From Lachnospiraceae bacterium (GTDB taxonomy: Bacteria > Bacillota > Clostridia > Lachnospirales > Lachnospiraceae), in assembly GCA_017622845.1 (NCBI GenBank), contig JAGAQJ010000027.1:1-33362 (forward strand): DNA of 33,362 nucleotides, given 5' to 3'. The first letter of the stretch is position 1; every line of letters starts with the position of its first letter. Below, piece after piece: positions 4,996 through 13,231 of the stretch. The position numbers and the translations under genes were made by a program. The notes beneath the pieces are model-generated. The model searched no databases. It was not told the origin of the DNA and was given only the letters and a program-made list of their open reading frames with translations.

Positions 4996-5631
4996 CTATT
5001 CATAGGGAGTTAGAGACAGATAACTGAGGGTTCCCTGCTCGATATCTGTTCCTTTTTCAAGCAGAGCGATAAGCCCCTGTACTGTTTCTTCAATTTCATC
5101 CGGCGTGGAGGGCAGCAGGGAATTGTCCAGCTTTACAGCAAGCACAATCAATACGATTTCTGCCAAAGCAGCAGGGGAGTCAAAGTGGATATCACCGCTT
5201 TCGATCCCCTGCTTTATAATTTCTGTCAAGGCAGGCTTTAATTCGGATATGACATGAGTCAGGTATTTGTGATGCAGGAAAGCCAAATCCTGTGCACTGG
5301 CATTGTCAGGAGAATTGTTGTTTTCTTTGATAAAGGCTGTTGAAGAATTCCGGCACGCCTGAAAGAGCATTGCCATGCGCGTAAAGGGCGCAATGTCGGT
5401 CTGGGCCGCGAGATTTTTTGCTGTGTGAAGCGGCGTTTCGTAACTGCGTTCGATCAGGGCATCTAAGATGGCGTCCTTTGACGGAAAATAATAGTAAATG
5501 CTTCCCTTTCCTATCCCGGCTTTTTGGGCAATCTCGCTGACGGAAATGTTTTGGATTTTCTTTTCCGTCAAAAGCTGCTGAAGTGCGTCCAGTATCATAT
5601 CATATTTTTCATGTTTTTTGGTATCAGGCAT
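4996..5631 (-). CDS. TetR-family transcriptional regulator
   Basis: 211 residues from the chosen start at 5631 (MPDTKKHEKYD), which has AGGTGG 8 nt upstream. The open frame extends up to 5739, but the best minus-strand promoter (5711-5739) lies inside that extension, which rules it out. Residues about 8-55 form the TetR DNA-binding domain (ILDALQQLLTEKKIQNISVS, then EIAQKAGIGKGSIYYYFPSK, the recognition helix and YYYF hallmark). The C-terminal part is the variable ligand-binding helical domain. The gene is divergent from the SCP2/hydrolase/condensation/ACP/ligase run, and the intergenic region holds two matching dyads of TetR-operator type, so it most likely represses that run and perhaps itself, with an acyl or lipid effector inferred from the cluster content. 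Confidence 0.88.
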   Translation of the reverse strand: MPDTKKHEKYDMILDALQQLLTEKKIQNISVSEIAQKAGIGKGSIYYYFPSKDAILDALIERSYETPLHTAKNLAAQTDIAPFTRMAMLFQACRNSSTAFIKENNNSPDNASAQDLAFLHHKYLTHVISELKPALTEIIKQGIESGDIHFDSPAALAEIVLIVLAVKLDNSLLPSTPDEIEETVQGLIALLEKGTDIEQGTLSYLSLTPYE

Positions 5632-5710
5632 GTGCGATGCCACCTTTCTCATAAAATCAATGTAAAAAGGATTCAGGATATTTTGTATTTCTTTTCGGAA
5701 ATTAACAAAA

Positions 5711-5739
5711 ATTATACCACATCTGTGGGAAAGGAACAA
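5711..5739 (-). promoter_or_regulatory. Promoter of the TetR gene
   Basis: On the minus strand, TTGTTC (5739-5734), a 17-nt spacer and TATAAT (5716-5711) with an extended TGG just before it. The expected start, about 5704, leaves a 70-nt leader before ATG 5631. Confidence 0.65.
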
Positions 5740-5797
5740 TTGTAAATTTTGCTATAAAAAATAAAAAATATTCTGCGTAAAATTGGGAAAACCATAC

Positions 5798-5812
5798 TTG
5801 ACCAACGGTCGA
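5798..5812. promoter_or_regulatory. Putative TetR operator 1, over the -35 of the acyl cluster
   Basis: TTGACC-AAC-GGTCGA is a dyad with 6-bp half-sites. Its TTGACC also reads as a -35, with TAGGCT (5822-5827, preceded by TGTGG) 18 nt downstream as a weak -10. Binding here would block that promoter. Confidence 0.55.
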
Positions 5813-5841
5813 AAAATGTGGTAGGCTTAAGACAAACAAAG

Positions 5842-5856
5842 TCGACTGATGGTCGA
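5842..5856. promoter_or_regulatory. Putative TetR operator 2
   Basis: TCGACT-GAT-GGTCGA repeats the pattern of operator 1 (shared right half GGTCGAAAAA), centre to centre 44 bp away, about four helical turns. It falls just after the predicted transcription start. Confidence 0.55.
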
Positions 5857-5922
5857 AAAACAGTGGGACCTTCCAGGGGAGGTCTGCGAATGTTTTGAAA
5901 ATAAAAGGTATGGAGGAAGAAT

Positions 5923-6318
5923 ATGACCTACGCAGATTTTTTTTATGAGATTAAAGGAAAGTTTATGGGAGCAGATGTGAGCGACATTCAGGAGCATCTT
6001 GCTTATCAGTTTAATATTGAGGACGAGGAAGCAGGAGGCGCTTTTTATGTCGAGGTCAAAGAGGGTGTGCTCTATGTGGAGCCGTATGAGTACTATGATA
6101 GAGATGCCGCATTTACATGTAAGCCGGAGGTGCTTGTAAAGATTGCCGAGGGCGAGATGGACCCGGTATGGGCATTCACAACACAGAAGCTTAAAGTAGA
6201 TGGAAATATCGACAAGGCGCTTAAGCTCAACGAGATTATCCAGCGCAAGAAAAAGGAAATGAAAAAAGAAGCTAAGGAAGCTAAAAAAGAGGCTAAAAAG
6301 AAGACTGCTGGTAAATAG
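5923..6318 (+). CDS. SCP2-type sterol/lipid carrier domain protein
   Basis: 131 residues with ribosome site GGAGGA before ATG 5923. The body matches the SCP2 fold: a predicted N-terminal helix, strands around FNIEDEEAGGAFYVEVKEGVLYV, AAFTCKPEVLVKIAEGEMDP and the closing WAFTTQKLKVDGNIDKALKL, which is the typical SCP2 ending (K/GDx-AL). SCP2 domains bind fatty acyl-CoA or other lipids in a hydrophobic tunnel. Residues from about 109 form a highly basic Lys/Glu/Ala tail (KKEMKKEAKEAKKEAKKK) that could contact membranes or acidic partners. First gene of the TetR-controlled run; 19 nt before the hydrolase start. Role as lipid binder or presenter in the cluster is inference. Confidence 0.8.
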   Translation: MTYADFFYEIKGKFMGADVSDIQEHLAYQFNIEDEEAGGAFYVEVKEGVLYVEPYEYYDRDAAFTCKPEVLVKIAEGEMDPVWAFTTQKLKVDGNIDKALKLNEIIQRKKKEMKKEAKEAKKEAKKKTAGK

Positions 6319-6337
6319 CAGCATGGAGGTGCAAGCA

Positions 6338-7288
6338 ATGGGAATACTGAAAAACACCATGACCTGTCTGGGTGTCCTTGCGGCAGCAGGCGTGGGAGAG
6401 ACAGCGTACTTTTACAGAAGAACAATGAAGCGCAACAATGCCAAGGTAGAGCGCACCATGAAGATGTCAGGAACGGACTGGTCTCAGTACGCGCCGCTGA
6501 TGGAGAAGAGAAAGGCATTTATGATGGCTCAGCCGCACAAGGATGTCTATGAGACTTCCTTTGACAAACTGAAGCTTCATGCAACTTATTTTCCGGCAAT
6601 TGAAGAAAATGCAAATAAGAAAAAGGTTGCCATCTGCTTTCACGGGTATACAAGCCAGGGCTTGTCAGATTACATAGGCTTATCGGATTATTATCTGAAA
6701 AGAGGCTTTGCAATGCTTCTTCCGGATGCAAGGGCACATGGTCAGAGCGAGGGCGAGTACATCGGCTTTGGCTGTCTGGACAGGAAAGATGCCCTTGTGT
6801 GGATTAACTGGGTAATTCAGGAGCTTGGCGAGGACGTGGAGATTGTGCTGCACGGAACGTCTATGGGCGGCGCTACCGTATTGATGGCAAGCGGACTTGA
6901 GCTTCCCGCCCAGGTAAAAGGAATTGTTTCTGACTGCGGATTTACCTCGCCTAAGGAAGTATTTACCCATGTGCTGAATACCATGTATCATCTGCCTGCA
7001 TTTCCTGCAATTCAGGGAGCAGACATCATCAACAAAAAGCTTGCAGGCTATGGCATGGATGAGTGCAATGCAAAACGAGAGGTTGCAAAAGCCAAGGTAC
7101 CTATTTTATTTATCCATGGCGCAAATGATACCTTTGTCCCATGTAAGATGTGCCATGAGATTTATGACTGCTGTGCATCACCCAAAAAGATACTGATTGT
7201 GGAGGGTGCAGCGCATGCAGAGAGTTATTATAAGGATACGGAAAAATACGAGCAGGCGTTGAATGAGTTTTTTGCGGAAACATTGTAG
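6338..7288 (+). CDS. Alpha/beta hydrolase with an N-terminal membrane anchor
   Basis: 316 residues. The start is ATG 6338 because GGAGG (6325-6329) gives good spacing; the upstream ATG 6323 overlaps that site. Residues about 8-27 are hydrophobic (MTCLGVLAAAGVGETAYFY) and followed by RRTMKRNN, so a membrane anchor with cytosolic body or an uncleaved signal is likely. The catalytic triad is visible: S175 in HGTSMGG, D264 in HGANDTFVP, H293 in GAAHAESYY. The oxyanion region is FHGYTSQG. The family resembles Lachnospiraceae and Bacillus YqkD-like hydrolases that act on esters or acyl chains. In this cluster it could release acyl groups from the carrier or trim a lipid product (inference). Confidence 0.85.
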   Translation: MGILKNTMTCLGVLAAAGVGETAYFYRRTMKRNNAKVERTMKMSGTDWSQYAPLMEKRKAFMMAQPHKDVYETSFDKLKLHATYFPAIEENANKKKVAICFHGYTSQGLSDYIGLSDYYLKRGFAMLLPDARAHGQSEGEYIGFGCLDRKDALVWINWVIQELGEDVEIVLHGTSMGGATVLMASGLELPAQVKGIVSDCGFTSPKEVFTHVLNTMYHLPAFPAIQGADIINKKLAGYGMDECNAKREVAKAKVPILFIHGANDTFVPCKMCHEIYDCCASPKKILIVEGAAHAESYYKDTEKYEQALNEFFAETL

Positions 7289-7308
7289 TCAAGAGGAGGG
7301 GGATTTTG

Positions 7309-8709
7309 ATGAAAACAAGATATGGATATAAGACATACCCGCTAACAGCGGCACAGAAGTACCATTTTTATTATTCGGAGTATTGTCCCGGCAAGGAGAT
7401 TCTCAATGTCGGAACCAGCCTTACAATCGAGTTCGAGCTGAATGTTGAGGAGCTTCGCAAAGCGATATATAAGGCATATGAGCGCTGTGAATCCATGCGC
7501 GCGCGCCTTACATATGATGCAAAGGAGAAGGAATGGTATCAGTATATTGTTGATAAGGAAGAACGCGAGATTGAGTTTGTGGATTTTTCCGGCAAAACCA
7601 TGGATGAGGCAGAAGCCGAGATGACGGCATGGACACGTGTTCCGTTTGAACAGGATGCTCCGATGAACAAGGTTGTCATCATTAAGACCCCGGATGGCTT
7701 TCAGGGAATGTACCTTGTAGGAGACCACAGATTTCTTGACGCACAGTCCTTGATTTGCTTTTTGAAGGATGTCATAGAGCTGTACTGTAATGCGAACTTT
7801 GAGAATGTGCCGTATCCGGCGGATATGCGCTCTTATGTTGAGCAGCTTGAGAAGGATTTTGCATATGAAGCAGGCAGCAAGGCACAGGCAAGAGACAGGG
7901 AATATTTCCATAAAATGTTTGAGGCGCCGGAGCCGATATACAATGGCATAGACGGCAGGAGAAAGCTTGATGAGGCAAGGGCAGCAACCAAAAATCCGAA
8001 TCTCAGGGCAGCGCCGACCGGTTCAGACAGTTTTGCAGCAGAGATTGATATCTTCCATCTGGAGGGAGAACCGACCGAGCGACTGATGACCTTCTGCGAG
8101 AAACAGCATATTTCATTACAATGCCTGCTGATTATGGGAATTCGTACTTATCTGCAGAAAATGAACAATTGTGATGATGTTTCCATGATGGTCGCCTATG
8201 CCCGCAGAGCGACGCTTCTGGAAAAGAAATCCGGCGGTACGCGTATCCACAGCTTTCCATTCCGGACAATGATTCCCGGGGATAAGAGCTTTTTGGAGGG
8301 AATTTTTGAAATCAGGGACAAGCAGAATGAGATTTTCCGCTATGTGAATTTCGACCCGGTGGAATGCATGATTTATAAGAATCAGGTATACAATCCGCCA
8401 AGAGGAATGGGATATGAGACGGTATCTCTTACTTACCAGCCCGCTACGCTGCGTGAAAAGGGGCTGACCGACTTGGGAGGAATCCGGTACAAGACCAAGA
8501 GATACGGCAATGGCTATTATGCAGACGGTCTTTATCTGACGGTTATGCACAGACCGGAGGATAATGGTCTGGACTTTAGCTTTGAGCATCAGACAAAGGC
8601 ATATAGCAGAGAAACACTGGAACGGTTCTATTATTATTTGTGTAAGATTATGTTTAAGGGAACAGAGAATCCGAATCTGAAGATTGGTGATATCATTAAG
8701 CTTGTGTAA
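7309..8709 (+). CDS. Stand-alone condensation-fold acyltransferase (HxxxD)
   Basis: 466 residues from ATG 7309, behind AGGAGGGGG; a TTG directly upstream is not needed. The start YPLTAAQKYHFYYSEYCPGK resembles the opening of NRPS condensation domains (PLT..Q...). The key motif is H140-R-F-L-D144 in YLVGDHRFLDAQSL, the HHxxxDG motif of condensation, PapA and wax-ester-synthase acyltransferases, with Asp replacing the first His and Ala replacing the Gly. Length (about 450) is that of a single CAT-like double-fold domain. No adenylation or carrier domain is fused; separate ACP and AMP-ligase genes follow. The likely reaction is transfer of an acyl group from the carrier protein to an alcohol or amine (inference). 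The acceptor cannot be read from sequence. Confidence 0.7.
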   Translation: MKTRYGYKTYPLTAAQKYHFYYSEYCPGKEILNVGTSLTIEFELNVEELRKAIYKAYERCESMRARLTYDAKEKEWYQYIVDKEEREIEFVDFSGKTMDEAEAEMTAWTRVPFEQDAPMNKVVIIKTPDGFQGMYLVGDHRFLDAQSLICFLKDVIELYCNANFENVPYPADMRSYVEQLEKDFAYEAGSKAQARDREYFHKMFEAPEPIYNGIDGRRKLDEARAATKNPNLRAAPTGSDSFAAEIDIFHLEGEPTERLMTFCEKQHISLQCLLIMGIRTYLQKMNNCDDVSMMVAYARRATLLEKKSGGTRIHSFPFRTMIPGDKSFLEGIFEIRDKQNEIFRYVNFDPVECMIYKNQVYNPPRGMGYETVSLTYQPATLREKGLTDLGGIRYKTKRYGNGYYADGLYLTVMHRPEDNGLDFSFEHQTKAYSRETLERFYYYLCKIMFKGTENPNLKIGDIIKLV

Positions 8710-8729
8710 TTGCATTGCATGAAAAAGAC

Positions 8730-8861
8730 GTAACAGTTCAGCCTTCGGCTTCCTGCTGCCGGACTCAAGGCATACAAAACCGCTTCGCGGCGGCCTGAGT
8801 CCTTCGAACGCTATGCTTTCTTACGAGATTGGCAGCAAGTGCAAACCTCTGAGCTGAACTG
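8730..8861. repeat. Structured palindromic element inside the acyl operon
   Basis: Nested complementary arms: CAGTTCAG (8734-8741) with CTGAACTG (8854-8861), TGCTGCC (8754-8760) with GGCAGCA (8831-8837), GGACTCA (8761-8767) with TGAGTCC (8796-8802), and a CCGC-TTC-GCGG hairpin (8780-8790). The left end GTAACAGTTCAGCCTT (8730-8745) reappears inverted at 16765-16780, so this is a dispersed element. As RNA it would fold between the acyltransferase and ACP cistrons and could act as a stabiliser or attenuator. Confidence 0.6.
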
Positions 8862-8928
8862 CAGCATATATCTTCATAGCGGCTGCTGTGATTTGCAGCA
8901 CAGAATAACATAGAAAGAGGGTAAAGTT

Positions 8929-9159
8929 ATGTTTGAGAAATTAGCAGAAATTATTACAAATTATGTGGAAGTAAAGAAGGAGGACATCAGGCCGGAGTCA
9001 CGCTTTATGGAGGATTTAGGCTTCAGCTCGTTTGATTTTATGAGTATGCTCGGCGAGCTTGAGGATGAACTGGATATAGAAATCAATCCGGAGGAGGCTG
9101 CCAATATCCGCACTGTGCAGGAGGCAGCTGATTACCTGGAGAAGCTTCAGCAGCCGTAA
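8929..9159 (+). CDS. Acyl carrier protein (dedicated to the acyl cluster)
   Basis: 76 residues, acidic, four-helix carrier fold. The phosphopantetheine site is S34 in DLGFSSFDFM (canonical DLGxDSLDxV with Ser for Asp and Phe for Leu). The flanks ESRFMEDLG and LEDELDIEINPEEAANIRTVQEAADYL match helices II and III. The ribosome site is AGAGGG 9 nt before ATG 8929. Its position between a condensation-fold enzyme and an AMP-forming ligase, instead of fab genes, argues that it is a secondary carrier and not the housekeeping AcpP. No phosphopantetheinyl transferase is encoded in the window, so it would need one from elsewhere. Confidence 0.88.
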   Translation: MFEKLAEIITNYVEVKKEDIRPESRFMEDLGFSSFDFMSMLGELEDELDIEINPEEAANIRTVQEAADYLEKLQQP

Positions 9160-9278
9160 GGGCGGTTACGGCAGGCATTTTGGCGTATAGAGGACAGCGC
9201 GGCAAATGTGCAGTCCTGTACGAAATAAAAAAGATTTCAGGCAACGATACAGGTCAATCGGGATTGGAGAATTTCATT

Positions 9279-10817
9279 ATGAATGAAGGAAAGAGTACGA
9301 TACGTGAGCTGCTTGTGGCAGCAGAAAAAAATTACAATACACAGGATGCGTTCCGCTATAAGATAAAAGGCGCAGATGAAAGCGGTAAAAAAGAGATGCA
9401 GATTGAGAGTAAATCCTACACACAGCTAAAAAATGATAGTGAATGTTTTTCGGCTGCACTTGCAGGGCTTGGAGAACAGGGGAAGCACATAGCTGTTGTC
9501 GGACCGACTTCTTATTCTTGGATTGTTGCATATTTCGGCATTGCCGACAGCGGCAGCGTAGTAGTGCCTCTCGATGCACAGCTTCCGGCAGAGGATTTGT
9601 GCGAGCTGATTGACCGCGCTGATGTGACTGCTCTGGTATATGATGCGGCTAAGGCAAATGTGGCAGAGATGGCGGCAAAGCGCTGTGAAGGTCTGAAGCA
9701 TATTATCTGTATGAGTGAACCGCAGGGAATAGAAGGCGCTCATTCCATGTGGAACCTGATTGGAGCGCAGAGTCCGGGCTTTGCCTATGAACCGCAGCCG
9801 GAACAGCTTGCGACGATTATGTTTACATCGGGCACGACCGGGAAGAGCAAAGGCGTTATGCTGACACATAGAAATCTGGCGGAGAATGCGACCTGTCTGG
9901 ATATGGGACTTGAGTCCGGTATGGTGATTCTGTCGGTGCTTCCGATTCATCACGCTTACTGTCTCAGCATGGATATTTTAAAGGGAATTTCTATCGGTTC
10001 GATTATATGCATTAACGATTCACTGCTTCGTGTGGCAAAGAATATTAAGCTCTTTGAGCCGAACATGATACTGATGGTTCCGCTGATGATTGAAACGCTT
10101 GCCAAGAAGCTTGAGGAGGCATCGTGGATTCCGGCTCCGCTTGTCAAGGCAAAGGTGTTTGGCAAGCAGTTCCATACCGTGTGCAGCGGAGGCGCCTATC
10201 TGAACCCGGCTTATATCGACCTCTTTAAAAAGTATGGAATCGCTATTTGGCAAGGTTATGGTATGACAGAGTGCTCGCCTGTCATCAGTACGAATTACGG
10301 CGATTACATAAAGGAAGGTTCTGTCGGCAGGCTGATGCCGAACTGTGAGGCAAAGGTTGTAGATGAGGAGCTTTGGGTGAAGGGTTCCAGTGTTATGCAG
10401 GGCTACTATAAAATGCCAAAGGAAACAGAGGAGACCCTGTGCGACGGCTGGTTAAAGACCGGGGACTTAGGATATGTGGACGAGGACGGCTTTGTCTTTT
10501 TGACGGGACGCAAGAAAAATCTGATTATTACGCCAAACGGCGAAAATGTTTCACCGGAGGAAATTGAGAATAAGCTTGGAGAAGACCGTCTGGTGCAGGA
10601 GGTGCTTGTGCGCGAGAGCGAAGGAGCGATTGAGGCGGAGATTTTTCCTGATTATGAGTATGCGGCAAAGAAGAAAATCAAGGATGTTCCGGCAGAGCTG
10701 CAGAAGATTATTGATGCCTACAATCAAAGCGCTCCGCTTTACAAGCGCGTGTTTAAGCTCAAGGTGCGTGAAGTAGAGTTTGAGAAAAACACAACAAAGA
10801 AAATCAAGCGCTTTTAA
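9279..10817 (+). CDS. AMP-forming acyl-ACP/acyl-CoA ligase
   Basis: 512 residues from ATG 9279 (TGGAGA 9 nt upstream); the frame is open back to 9180 but that part looks unlike the family. ANL-superfamily motifs are in order: P-loop FTSGTTGKSKGVMLTH, A5 GYGMTECSPVIS, A7 LKTGDLGYVDEDG, A8 hinge TGRKKNLIITPNGENVSPEE, and the A10 lysine in the C-terminal TTKKIKRF. It activates a carboxylate as acyl-adenylate and passes it to a thiol. The adjacent ACP gene suggests acyl-ACP formation; acyl-CoA formation cannot be excluded. The A8/A10 style (GRKKNLI, KR) is that of fatty-acid ligases rather than NRPS adenylation domains, so a fatty acid substrate is the first guess. Last gene of the run; no hairpin terminator follows before the aspS promoter. 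Confidence 0.85.
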   Translation: MNEGKSTIRELLVAAEKNYNTQDAFRYKIKGADESGKKEMQIESKSYTQLKNDSECFSAALAGLGEQGKHIAVVGPTSYSWIVAYFGIADSGSVVVPLDAQLPAEDLCELIDRADVTALVYDAAKANVAEMAAKRCEGLKHIICMSEPQGIEGAHSMWNLIGAQSPGFAYEPQPEQLATIMFTSGTTGKSKGVMLTHRNLAENATCLDMGLESGMVILSVLPIHHAYCLSMDILKGISIGSIICINDSLLRVAKNIKLFEPNMILMVPLMIETLAKKLEEASWIPAPLVKAKVFGKQFHTVCSGGAYLNPAYIDLFKKYGIAIWQGYGMTECSPVISTNYGDYIKEGSVGRLMPNCEAKVVDEELWVKGSSVMQGYYKMPKETEETLCDGWLKTGDLGYVDEDGFVFLTGRKKNLIITPNGENVSPEEIENKLGEDRLVQEVLVRESEGAIEAEIFPDYEYAAKKKIKDVPAELQKIIDAYNQSAPLYKRVFKLKVREVEFEKNTTKKIKRF

Positions 10818-10860: not shown

Positions 10861-11203
10861 GGTTATAATTTTAATGAAACCGAATTCTGGAATAAAAATG
10901 ATAGGAAAATGCGATGAAGGAGACTCTTGTCAGGGAAAACGACAGGAAGACGGCGTCACCGACTGAGAGCGCTGTCAGTGGAAGCTGGCGAAGGGAACAC
11001 TCCGGAGCAGATTATTTGAAAAGGCATCATGTATAACAGGATGCGCCAGTAGGGTAATACGTGCACGTGCGTTAAACGTAAGAGAGGATTGAATGCTTTA
11101 TCAAAGATTTTAGCAGATAAGGTGTTCTGTCAATGCGGGTGGTACCGCGGGTATATTTTAAATTATCCGTCCCGGAATACATTTTGTATTCCGGGGTTTT
11201 TTT
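10861..11203 (+). promoter_or_regulatory. T-box leader, Asn specifier (AAC), overlapping Glu codon
   Basis: The T-box core is GGGTGGTACCGCGG (about 11137-11150), with UGGU able to pair the tRNA acceptor end. The terminator is an 11-12-bp stem CCCGGAATACA/TGTATTCCGGG (11171-11193) followed by seven or more T. Stem I features are visible: the GAGAGC...TGGAAGC distal region (10966-10985) and the 3' side GAAGGGAACACTCCGGAGC. Aligning that with the known glyQS leader (GAAAGGC then six bases then GAGC) puts the specifier at AAC 10996-10998. The bases GAA (10995-10997) overlap it in another frame. A T-box with both Glu and Asn codons controlling gatCAB is known from Clostridium acetobutylicum. Uncharged tRNA would favour antitermination and expression of aspS-gatCAB. 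Confidence 0.85.
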
Positions 11204-11208
11204 ATGCG

Positions 11209-11472
11209 CAGACCCGTGCAGATGAAATATGCCGCCCAAGCGGAGCACGGGTCGCGCAGCGAGCAGAGGAGAAGGACGTTCCTCTACTCGATTGTACAGA
11301 CCCGTGCAGATGAAATATGCCGCCCAAGCGGCGCACAGGTCGCGCGCGAGCAGAGGAGAAGGACGTTCCTCTACTCGATTGTACCAGACCCATGCAGATG
11401 AAATATGCCGCCCAAGCGGCGCACGGGTCGCGCGGGGAGCAGAGGAGAAGGACATTCTTCTGCTCGATTGTA
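11209..11472. repeat. Three tandem 88-nt hairpin repeats in the aspS leader
   Basis: Units at 11209-11296, 11297-11384 and 11385-11472 are each exactly 88 nt and differ at only a few positions. Each holds GACCCGTGC ... GCACGGGTC arms enclosing CCGC-CCAA-GCGG, and a second hairpin CGAGCAGAGGA ... TCCTCTACTCG. They lie after the T-box terminator and before the aspS ribosome site, so they are in the 5' untranslated region of read-through transcripts. Several minus-strand frames that cross them are translations of the repeat. Confidence 0.9.
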
Positions 11473-11494
11473 AAAGTTGTGAGGAGGATTTGAA

Positions 11495-13231
11495 ATGTAC
11501 AGAGATTTGACAATGAAAGAAATTAGCGAGCAGCATATCGGGCAGACACTGCAGGTGGCAGGATGGGTTGAGAATATCCGCGACCATGGCGGTGTGTCGT
11601 TTATTGATTTGCGCGATATGTACGGCGTATTGCAGATTGTAATGAGAGATACAACACTCCTTGACGGTATCACGAAGGAAATGTGCATATCCGTTGAGGG
11701 ACCTGTGGAAAAAAGAGACGAGGATACGTACAATCCCAAGATTCCTACAGGAACGATTGAACTGGAAGCCAAGAAGGTGACTGTTCTCGGAAAAGTATAT
11801 CATCAGCTTCCGTTTGAGATTATGACATCAAAGGAAACAAGAGAAGATGTCCGCTTAAAATACCGTTACCTGGATTTGAGAAATGCCAAGGTAAAGGATA
11901 ATATTATCTTTCGCTCGCAGGTTATCAGCTTCTTAAGAGAGAAGATGACTCAGATGGGTTTTTTGGAGATTCAGACACCGATTTTGTGTGCATCTTCTCC
12001 TGAGGGCGCACGTGATTATATTGTTCCGTCAAGAAAATATAAAGGGAAATTCTATGCGCTTCCGCAGGCGCCGCAGCAGTATAAGCAGCTTTTGATGGTG
12101 TCAGGATTTGACAAATACTTCCAGATAGCACCGTGTTTTCGCGACGAGGATGCGCGGGCAGACCGTTCTCCGGGAGAGTTTTACCAGCTTGACTTTGAGA
12201 TGAGCTTTGCGACACAGGAGGATGTGTTTAGGGCAGGCGAGGAGGTTTTATCAGCCACATTTGAGAAATTTGCGCCGGAAGGGTATGCCGTGACACAGGC
12301 GCCGTACCCGATTATCAGCTACAAACAGGCTATGCTGGAGTTTGGTACGGATAAGCCTGACCTTAGAAATCCGCTTCGCATTATAGACGTGACAGACTTT
12401 TTCCAGAAGTGTACCTTTAAGCCGTTTGTTGGCAGAACGGTACGTGCCATCAAGGTACATGCCGAGATGTCAAAGGGCTTTCATGAGAAGCTTTTGAGCT
12501 TTGCTACAGGCATGGGAATGGGAGGACTTGGATATCTTGAGGTAGCTGATGATATGAGCTACAAGGGACCGATTGACAAATTTATTCCTGCTGAGTTAAA
12601 GTCAGAGCTTGCCGCAATTGCAGGGCTTGAGCCGGGCGACACGATATTCTTGATTGCAGACAAGGAGGAACGGGCAAATTATTATGCGGGACAGCTTCGC
12701 ATAGAGCTTGGCAATAAGCTTGATTTGTGCGAGAAAAATGCATATCGTTTCTGCTATGTCAATGATTTTCCGATGTTTGAGCTTGATCCTGAGACAAAGC
12801 AGATTGGATTTACACATAATCCGTTCTCAATGCCGCAAGGCGGACTTGACGCATTGATGAATGAGAATCCGCTGGATATTCTGGCATATCAGTATGATAT
12901 TGTATGCAACGGCGTGGAGCTTTCCAGCGGTGCAGTCAGAAATCATGACATGGAAATCATGGTCAAGGCATTTGAAATTGCAGGTTATGATGAGGAGACA
13001 CTTAAGTCAAAATTCGGTGCACTCTATCAGGCATTTCAGTTTGGCGCTCCGCCACATGCAGGTATGGCACCGGGCATTGACAGAATGCTGATGTTATTAA
13101 AGAATGAGGAAAATATCAGAGAAGTTATCGCATTCCCGATGAGCGGCTCTGCTCAGGACCTTATGTGCGGCGCACCCAACGACGTGACAGAGCAGCAGCT
13201 TAGAGAGGTGCATATCAAGGTAAGGGATTAA
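11495..13231 (+). CDS. aspS: Aspartyl-tRNA synthetase, probably non-discriminating (Asp/Asn)
   Basis: 578 residues, GAGGAGG 7 nt before ATG 11495. N-terminal OB-fold anticodon domain ([31 protein letters not shown]), class II catalytic core with motif 2 [22 protein letters not shown] and motif 3 [13 protein letters not shown], and the bacterial GAD insertion between about residues 290 and 415. It attaches Asp to tRNA(Asp). Operon linkage to gatCAB and an Asn-type T-box specifier imply that it also misacylates tRNA(Asn), the product being amidated by GatCAB. Discrimination cannot be proven by reading the sequence. 35 nt separate it from gatC. Confidence 0.95.

Follow-up and report, generated by a model that had tools for sequence, protein, structure and literature searches.

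A stretch of 33,362 nucleotides from a Lachnospiraceae bacterium (GenBank assembly GCA_017622845.1, contig JAGAQJ010000027.1), hereafter called the window, carries at positions 4996-10817 a divergent TetR gene and five plus-strand genes encoding an SCP2-type protein, an alpha/beta hydrolase, a stand-alone condensation protein, an acyl carrier protein (ACP) and an ANL (AMP-forming) ligase. We consider it likely that this locus is a repressor-controlled operon for the synthesis of fatty acid amides (FAA; acyl amines). The original prediction, which had been made from the letters of the DNA, described five co-directional genes with these domains behind an operator-bearing promoter; all five proved to be open frames on the plus strand with Pfam support, and the promoter was found to contain two putative 15-bp operator sites, at 5798-5812 and 5842-5856. 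The gene of the TetR-family repressor (4996..5631, minus strand; PF00440, 7.3e-14) lies just outside the range covered by that prediction (5632-10817). Its start is most likely the ATG at 5631, and the TetR relative in another locus (L119) begins at matching residues, MPDLKKRE.

The first gene of the operon encodes an SCP2-type lipid-binding protein of 131 aa with a Lys-rich tail (5923..6318; PF02036, 6.8e-14; PDB 4uei, 5.5e-05), followed by the alpha/beta hydrolase of 316 aa with an N-terminal hydrophobic stretch (6338..7288; PF12146, 1.2e-14) and by the condensation protein of 466 aa with the motif DHRFLDA (7309..8709; PF00668, 7.3e-33; PDB 12KH). The ACP of 76 aa (8929..9159; PF00550, 1.1e-11) probably carries its phosphopantetheine site at S34, as judged by eye from the motif LGFSSFD. 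In the ligase of 512 aa (9279..10817; PF00501, 1.4e-65) the motifs TSGTTGKSKG and GYGMTE and a C-terminal Lys (TTKKIKR) were also picked out by eye. The ligase frame opens at TTG 9180; the ATG at 9279 was taken as the best start, since it is preceded by a purine-rich stretch and close relatives (e.g., L005) align over all 512 residues from there. Thus the free-standing condensation (C), carrier and adenylating proteins are encoded together in the order C-ACP-ligase, with a single ACP in the operon. In the whole genome the condensation protein of the window gives the only PF00668 match, phosphopantetheinyl transferase (PF01648) is matched once, and there are five PP-binding matches, the ACP of the window being one of them. 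According to these matches, the ACP is a separate carrier, probably activatable in the cell.

The nearest solved relative of the condensation protein is the chain 12KH (E 4.2e-101, 342 bits), to which it aligns end-to-end (residues 8-465 to 6-464) with 38% identity over 460 columns; the next solved chain reaches 31.6 bits (E 6.7e-07). 12KH is OaaC, a stand-alone condensation domain of Coprococcus eutactus, which together with OaaACP and OaaA produces FAA in vitro from ACP-bound fatty acids and free amines (PMC13142362), and this agrees with the acyltransferase role proposed earlier for the condensation protein. The FAA condensation domains are reported to share the motif (D/H)HxxxDS, with serine (42%), alanine (36%) or glycine (17%) in the last place, and to form a clade nearest to the starter condensation domains of nonribosomal peptide synthetases (NRPS) (PMC13142362). 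For OaaC, an autoinhibitory homodimer of the C protein opened by holo-ACP is described. The DHRFLDA of the window fits the reported motif. Among 107 loci collected as a wider set, the C proteins show DH..DA in 84, DH..DS in 12, NH..DA in six, HH..DA in four and NH..DS in one case, i.e., all of them have A or S in the last place and seven of the 107 begin with N. The alignment with OaaC also runs without gaps across the region of its extra helix near Gln214-His224, as far as can be judged from sequence only.

With OaaC as by far the nearest solved relative of its condensation protein, the three-gene core can apparently be assigned to the FAA, or "CTA", systems already known. The CTA operon of Blautia wexlerae and other Lachnospiraceae consists of three genes in the same order, C-ACP-ligase; CTA-positive Blautia and Coprococcus produce more acyl amines, and amines relieve fatty-acid toxicity (PMC13060934). 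The window shares with it the order of the core within one operon and the family of the host, and shares with the OaaC system the free-standing C protein, the ACP, the fatty-acid ligase and the DHxxxD(S/A) motif. The CTA operon, however, is described as consisting of three genes, and the words TetR, sterol, regulator, esterase, lipase, SCP2 and hydrolase are absent from the main text of PMC13060934. With canonical NRPS starter condensation domains the protein shares the fold family PF00668, whereas the window has no megasynthase, no multidomain C-A-PCP arrangement, apparently no acceptor carrier in the operon and no HHxxxDG motif. A remnant of a canonical NRPS was rejected, as the genome contains a sole PF00668 match and its best solved relative is OaaC.

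The phylogenetic analysis of the C proteins was performed with 63 rows thinned from the 107; it was a quick search with long-branch warnings, rooted for drawing only and run without a canonical C-domain outgroup, so that it does not bear on FAA monophyly. OaaC grouped with 11 low-identity rows (97% SH-aLRT; 51-56% identical to OaaC), and the window protein appeared in the other large group, neighbouring the OaaC clade and not inside it. This separate branch and the identity of 38%, together with the SCP2 and the dedicated hydrolase that set the operon apart, speak for another product of the same machinery, such as an N-acyl amino acid, an ester, or an acylated membrane lipid or protein. The FAA-type motif and the end-to-end alignment with OaaC argue against such a product, and FAA condensation domains reportedly accept small free amines but not amino acids (PMC13142362); we therefore regard it as unlikely.

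The conservation of the gene order was analyzed in 80 loci retained from 181 relatives of the condensation protein. They were chosen as best matches and therefore over-represent close kin; a gene was counted as present at no less than 45% identity, and misses at contig ends were set aside. The hydrolase stands beside C in 80/80 loci, the ACP in 79/79 and the ligase in 78/78, and SCP2 and TetR were found in 73/77 and 67/72 loci, respectively. The exact order and strands TetR-SCP2-hydrolase-C-ACP-ligase are kept in 60 of the 80 loci, including a Blautia-named locus (L051) and one locus (L019) with TetR 1.9 kb distant. The remaining 20 comprise ten loci cut by a contig end, one (L063) with a flipped TetR strand and nine truly devoid of SCP2 (L043, L052, L057, L070) or TetR (L025, L044, L050, L066, L072). 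No conserved flanking genes were found beyond the six in the 107 loci: the commonest flanking family occurs in 14 of them, at varied positions, and hence the conserved unit consists of six genes. The six-gene layout is more than chance. Conservation of the order with TetR and ACP in relatives, which had been proposed as a check of the original prediction, was thus confirmed; the acyl-conjugation reading itself gained support from the order and from the OaaC kinship, and at the same time it is less novel than supposed, the chemistry being known from the FAA and CTA systems.

In broader sampling the C gene was detected in 34 of the 38 genomes available for the genus and in 42 genomes of a family sample of 299. 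The matches in the family form two groups, one of 29 places with at least 49% identity and one of 14 places with no more than 36%. Of the 29 high-identity places, 27 have SCP2 close to C and the hydrolase gene between the two; the exceptions are G059 and G066, of which G066 is located at a contig end. Of the 14 low-identity (OaaC-side) loci, which do not include the C. eutactus locus itself, 11 have the order C-ACP-ligase; the order in L101 is C-ligase-ACP, and in L099 and L100 C alone is seen. Unlike the window, none of these 14 loci contains SCP2 or a full-length match to the window TetR (L088 gives one short weak match).

Some copies of the operon are reduced. L119 (5613-7563) keeps TetR, both operator sites and SCP2, followed by ligase fragments only, and apparently represents a decayed operon; in L109 the C gene is shortened and no ACP was matched. 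Such copies are what would be expected if the locus were a relic of NRPS genes that no longer work together. Nevertheless, all six genes of the window are intact, their order recurs in relatives, C is retained by nearly the whole genus, and there is no other condensation domain in the genome, which makes a relic extremely improbable.

The DNA between the TetR and SCP2 genes contains the operator O1 (TTGACC-AAC-GGTCGA; 5798..5812, plus strand), the left half of which coincides with a -35 box (5798-5803), an extended -10 element (TGG-TAGGCT; 5819..5827, plus strand) located 18 bp after the -35 box, and the operator O2 (TCGACT-GAT-GGTCGA; 5842..5856, plus strand), which lies 44 bp after O1 and just downstream of the -10 element. 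The assignment of the -35 box under O1 follows from the extended -10 (TG-n-TA; consensus of the relatives, tg-n-ta) at the right distance. For comparison, the intergenic DNA from TetR to the first operon gene (SCP2 in 69 cases, the hydrolase in four) was collected from 73 of the 76 loci in which TetR was matched, with L063, L019 and L109 omitted because of orientation or distance. The best score to the pattern TCGACC-N3-GGTCGA, derived from the window itself, was 12/12 in 33 regions, 11 in 37, 10 in two and 9 in one. Among 3650 base shuffles taken as a control six reached 10, one reached 11 and none reached 12. A pair of sites (O1 with at least 10/12 to TTGACC-N3-GGTCGA, O2 with at least 8/12 to its pattern) with a spacing of 43-45 bp is present in 71 of the 73 regions, namely 44 bp in 48, 43 bp in 19 and 45 bp in four; the exceptions are L104 and L105. 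Such an anatomy would suit a repressor blocking the polymerase via a pair of sites that face the same side of the helix.

In the genome of the window the operator pattern occurs twice at this promoter and at one other place, and a reversed control pattern occurs once. A wider TetR regulon is thus not supported, because the single extra match equals the background of one; with two of the three sites at this promoter the switch is probably local. The word TetR is absent from the main texts of PMC13142362, PMC13029680 and PMC13060934, and we found no transcriptional regulator of amide synthesis named in them. On the OaaC side, eight loci (L089-L095 and L098) carry a different TetR-like gene, which in seven of the eight is located at the downstream end on the opposite strand; the one copy checked (L091) matched PF14278 (7.7e-09) and PF00440 (3.8e-05). 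The OaaC-type systems may have a switch of their own.

In the hydrolase the residues S175, D264 and H293, which probably constitute the catalytic triad, are invariant in 28 sequences. Hydrolases with at least 51% identity were detected in 21 places among 200 family genomes, and all 21 adjoin a condensation gene; distant copies (45% or less) are scattered among the genomes of the family. A hydrolase with 32-37% identity to that of the window also accompanies the core in five of the 14 low-identity loci; in four of them it is upstream of C, and in L094 it lies downstream on the opposite strand. It is, however, of another lineage: in a quick tree with 19 of the 20 fetched outside copies (basal support 86) the hydrolases of the six-gene group and those of the OaaC side each came together, and not with each other. 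A common origin of the two lineages was rejected, as a tree constrained to unite them is worse by 61 log units (p-AU 0.000236, the topology test being run after the tree had been seen). Recruitment of a hydrolase to the same neighbours on two occasions speaks in favour of a real role for the enzyme.

As to this role, an N-terminal hydrophobic stretch (best 17-residue mean of at least 1.0) was found in all 90 full-length hydrolases of the six-gene type, and in 80 of the 90 the charge after the stretch exceeds the charge before it, both being crude measures. The stretch is probably a membrane anchor, and the distribution of charge suggests a position at the inner face of the membrane. We prefer the supply of fatty acids from membrane lipids as the function of the enzyme. 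The alternative that it acts as an editing thioesterase or as an amidase reversing the product, which concerns this step only, seems to us the less probable one, yet it deserves serious attention: the tracking of the condensation gene in 21 of 21 places and the separate lineage beside the OaaC-side clusters would fit any role in the cycle. What speaks for supply rather than editing or product hydrolysis is the hydrophobic stretch with its positive flank, pointing to a membrane-borne substrate, and the nearest solved relatives, which are, weakly, esterases (5g59, 9.6e-10). The hydrolysis step of the original prediction can be rated as a guess.

SCP2 behaves as a more separable component. Its relatives are present in 68 of the 299 family genomes, many of them without C, and often stand without TetR also. 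Of 15 places inspected where SCP2 is not beside C (L119-L133), four (L119, L120, L124, L129) have TetR and at least one operator-like site, L128 has one operator-like site without a TetR match, and the other ten have neither. TetR, the operators and SCP2 can thus apparently form a unit which the enzymes join or leave.

An SCP2-like protein of Blautia hominis, RS03310, is raised by cholesterol and binds it, and its predicted partner is a "nearby" condensation-domain protein, RS03300 (PMC13029680). The window likewise has its SCP2 near a condensation protein, with the hydrolase gene between the two. RefSeq locus tags usually step by five, which leaves room for one gene between RS03310 and RS03300, as in SCP2-hydrolase-C. 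From the tags and the word "nearby" it appears rather probable that the cholesterol-induced RS03310 is the first gene of an operon of this type, although it has been studied as a cholesterol protein, the terms "acyl carrier", "operon" and "TetR" being absent from the main text (PMC13029680). Four of the residues named there (I10, I22, Y28, F30) occur at the same numbers in the SCP2 of the window, which matches six of the 12 named positions; 84 SCP2 sequences range from 0 to 8. This agreement marks the protein family and not membership in the operon, as stand-alone SCP2 proteins fit equally well.

The same data allow the locus to be viewed as mainly a sterol-handling or lipid-detoxifying device, with SCP2 and TetR responsive to cholesterol or other host lipids and the condensation arm serving to conjugate a lipid by-product. 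The behaviour of RS03310 and its predicted partner would be explained in this way, as would the fact that L120, L124 and L129 have TetR, operator-like sites and SCP2 and lack the enzymes. Still, the listed matches of the enzymes next to SCP2 are to fatty-acyl and esterase families, none of them sterol-specific; the NAD-dependent oxidation claimed for the small SCP2 is surprising and comes from a single study (PMC13029680), and the assignment of RS03310 to this kind of operon is drawn from its tag and one word. We hold such a device to be improbable.

Returning to the FAA operon, we propose the following mode of action. The ligase would activate a free fatty acid with ATP and load it onto the dedicated ACP, from which the condensation protein would transfer the acyl chain to a small free amine, releasing an N-acyl amine. 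SCP2 would bind the lipid substrate or product and shield it in the cytoplasm, and the hydrolase, at the inner face of the membrane, would most likely free fatty acids from membrane-borne lipids for the ligase. TetR, bound to O1 over the -35 box and to O2, would keep the operon off until released by the accumulation of a fatty acid or a similar lipid. The cell would probably benefit by detoxifying free fatty acids, an advantage reported for the CTA operon of B. wexlerae (PMC13060934).

Several observations weigh against parts of this scheme. The identity to OaaC and the separate clade mean that the amine, and even the type of bond, could differ from those of OaaC. SCP2 is dispensable for the chemistry, given that 0 of the 14 OaaC-side loci have it, and SCP2 and more distant relatives of the hydrolase occur apart from the core as well. 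The hydrophobic stretch of the hydrolase is moderate: 36 of the 90 copies reach a mean of 1.6, and that of the window has 1.44. Finally, a search for the TetR ligand from sequence gave no informative match for the ligand domain, most matches being to the DNA-binding part.

Several features of the window lie outside the system. The 219-bp gap between the C and ACP genes is occupied over ~133 bp by a dispersed genome repeat (8729..8861, identified by genome matches), which looks like a small dispersed palindromic element; the region 8715-8900 has 41 listed matches in the genome including itself, many of them partial (40 of 240 candidates scored), and strong RNA folding is predicted for it (z -2.46; 1 of 200 shuffles as low). 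A TwoAYGGAY RNA motif is found at 127-294 (91.9 bits). Downstream of the ligase, a T-box leader (RF00230) at 10905-11177 scores 73 bits, below the gathering score of 93 (E 7e-15), and precedes a gene at 11495 assigned by eye to aspartyl-tRNA synthetase. Three tandem copies of an 88-bp unit stand between them (11209-11472), and the region 11180-11480 gives partial matches at 17 other places of the genome.

The core chemistry is already known from related gut bacteria with FAA and CTA systems; the novelty lies in the switch and in two helper genes, SCP2 and hydrolase, that surround the known three-gene core. The C. eutactus FAA system was reportedly discovered by Chang et al. in 2021. In the literature searched we found no description of the six-gene layout with its repressor, paired operators, SCP2 and hydrolase; the figures of Chang et al. 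(2021) may show it. As a more tentative extension, which we regard as possible and rather doubtful in its entirety, TetR, the two operators and SCP2 could represent a portable sensor of host lipids that captured an amide cassette in one lineage. Lipids of the host or its diet (fatty acids, perhaps cholesterol) would then directly switch on signalling amides, SCP2 and the anchored hydrolase would form a relay from membrane to enzyme, and the cholesterol response of the Blautia SCP2 and the work on acyl amines would concern one operon.

FAA of gut Clostridia are reported to act on host receptors and, according to one preprint, on gut hormones too. In this context the switch and the helper genes suggest what turns the pathway on, and the promoter with two operators and its own repressor makes the trigger of amide synthesis directly testable. 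The dedicated hydrolase and SCP2 suggest the source of the fatty acid. If RS03310 belongs to this type of operon, two separate lines of work would join.

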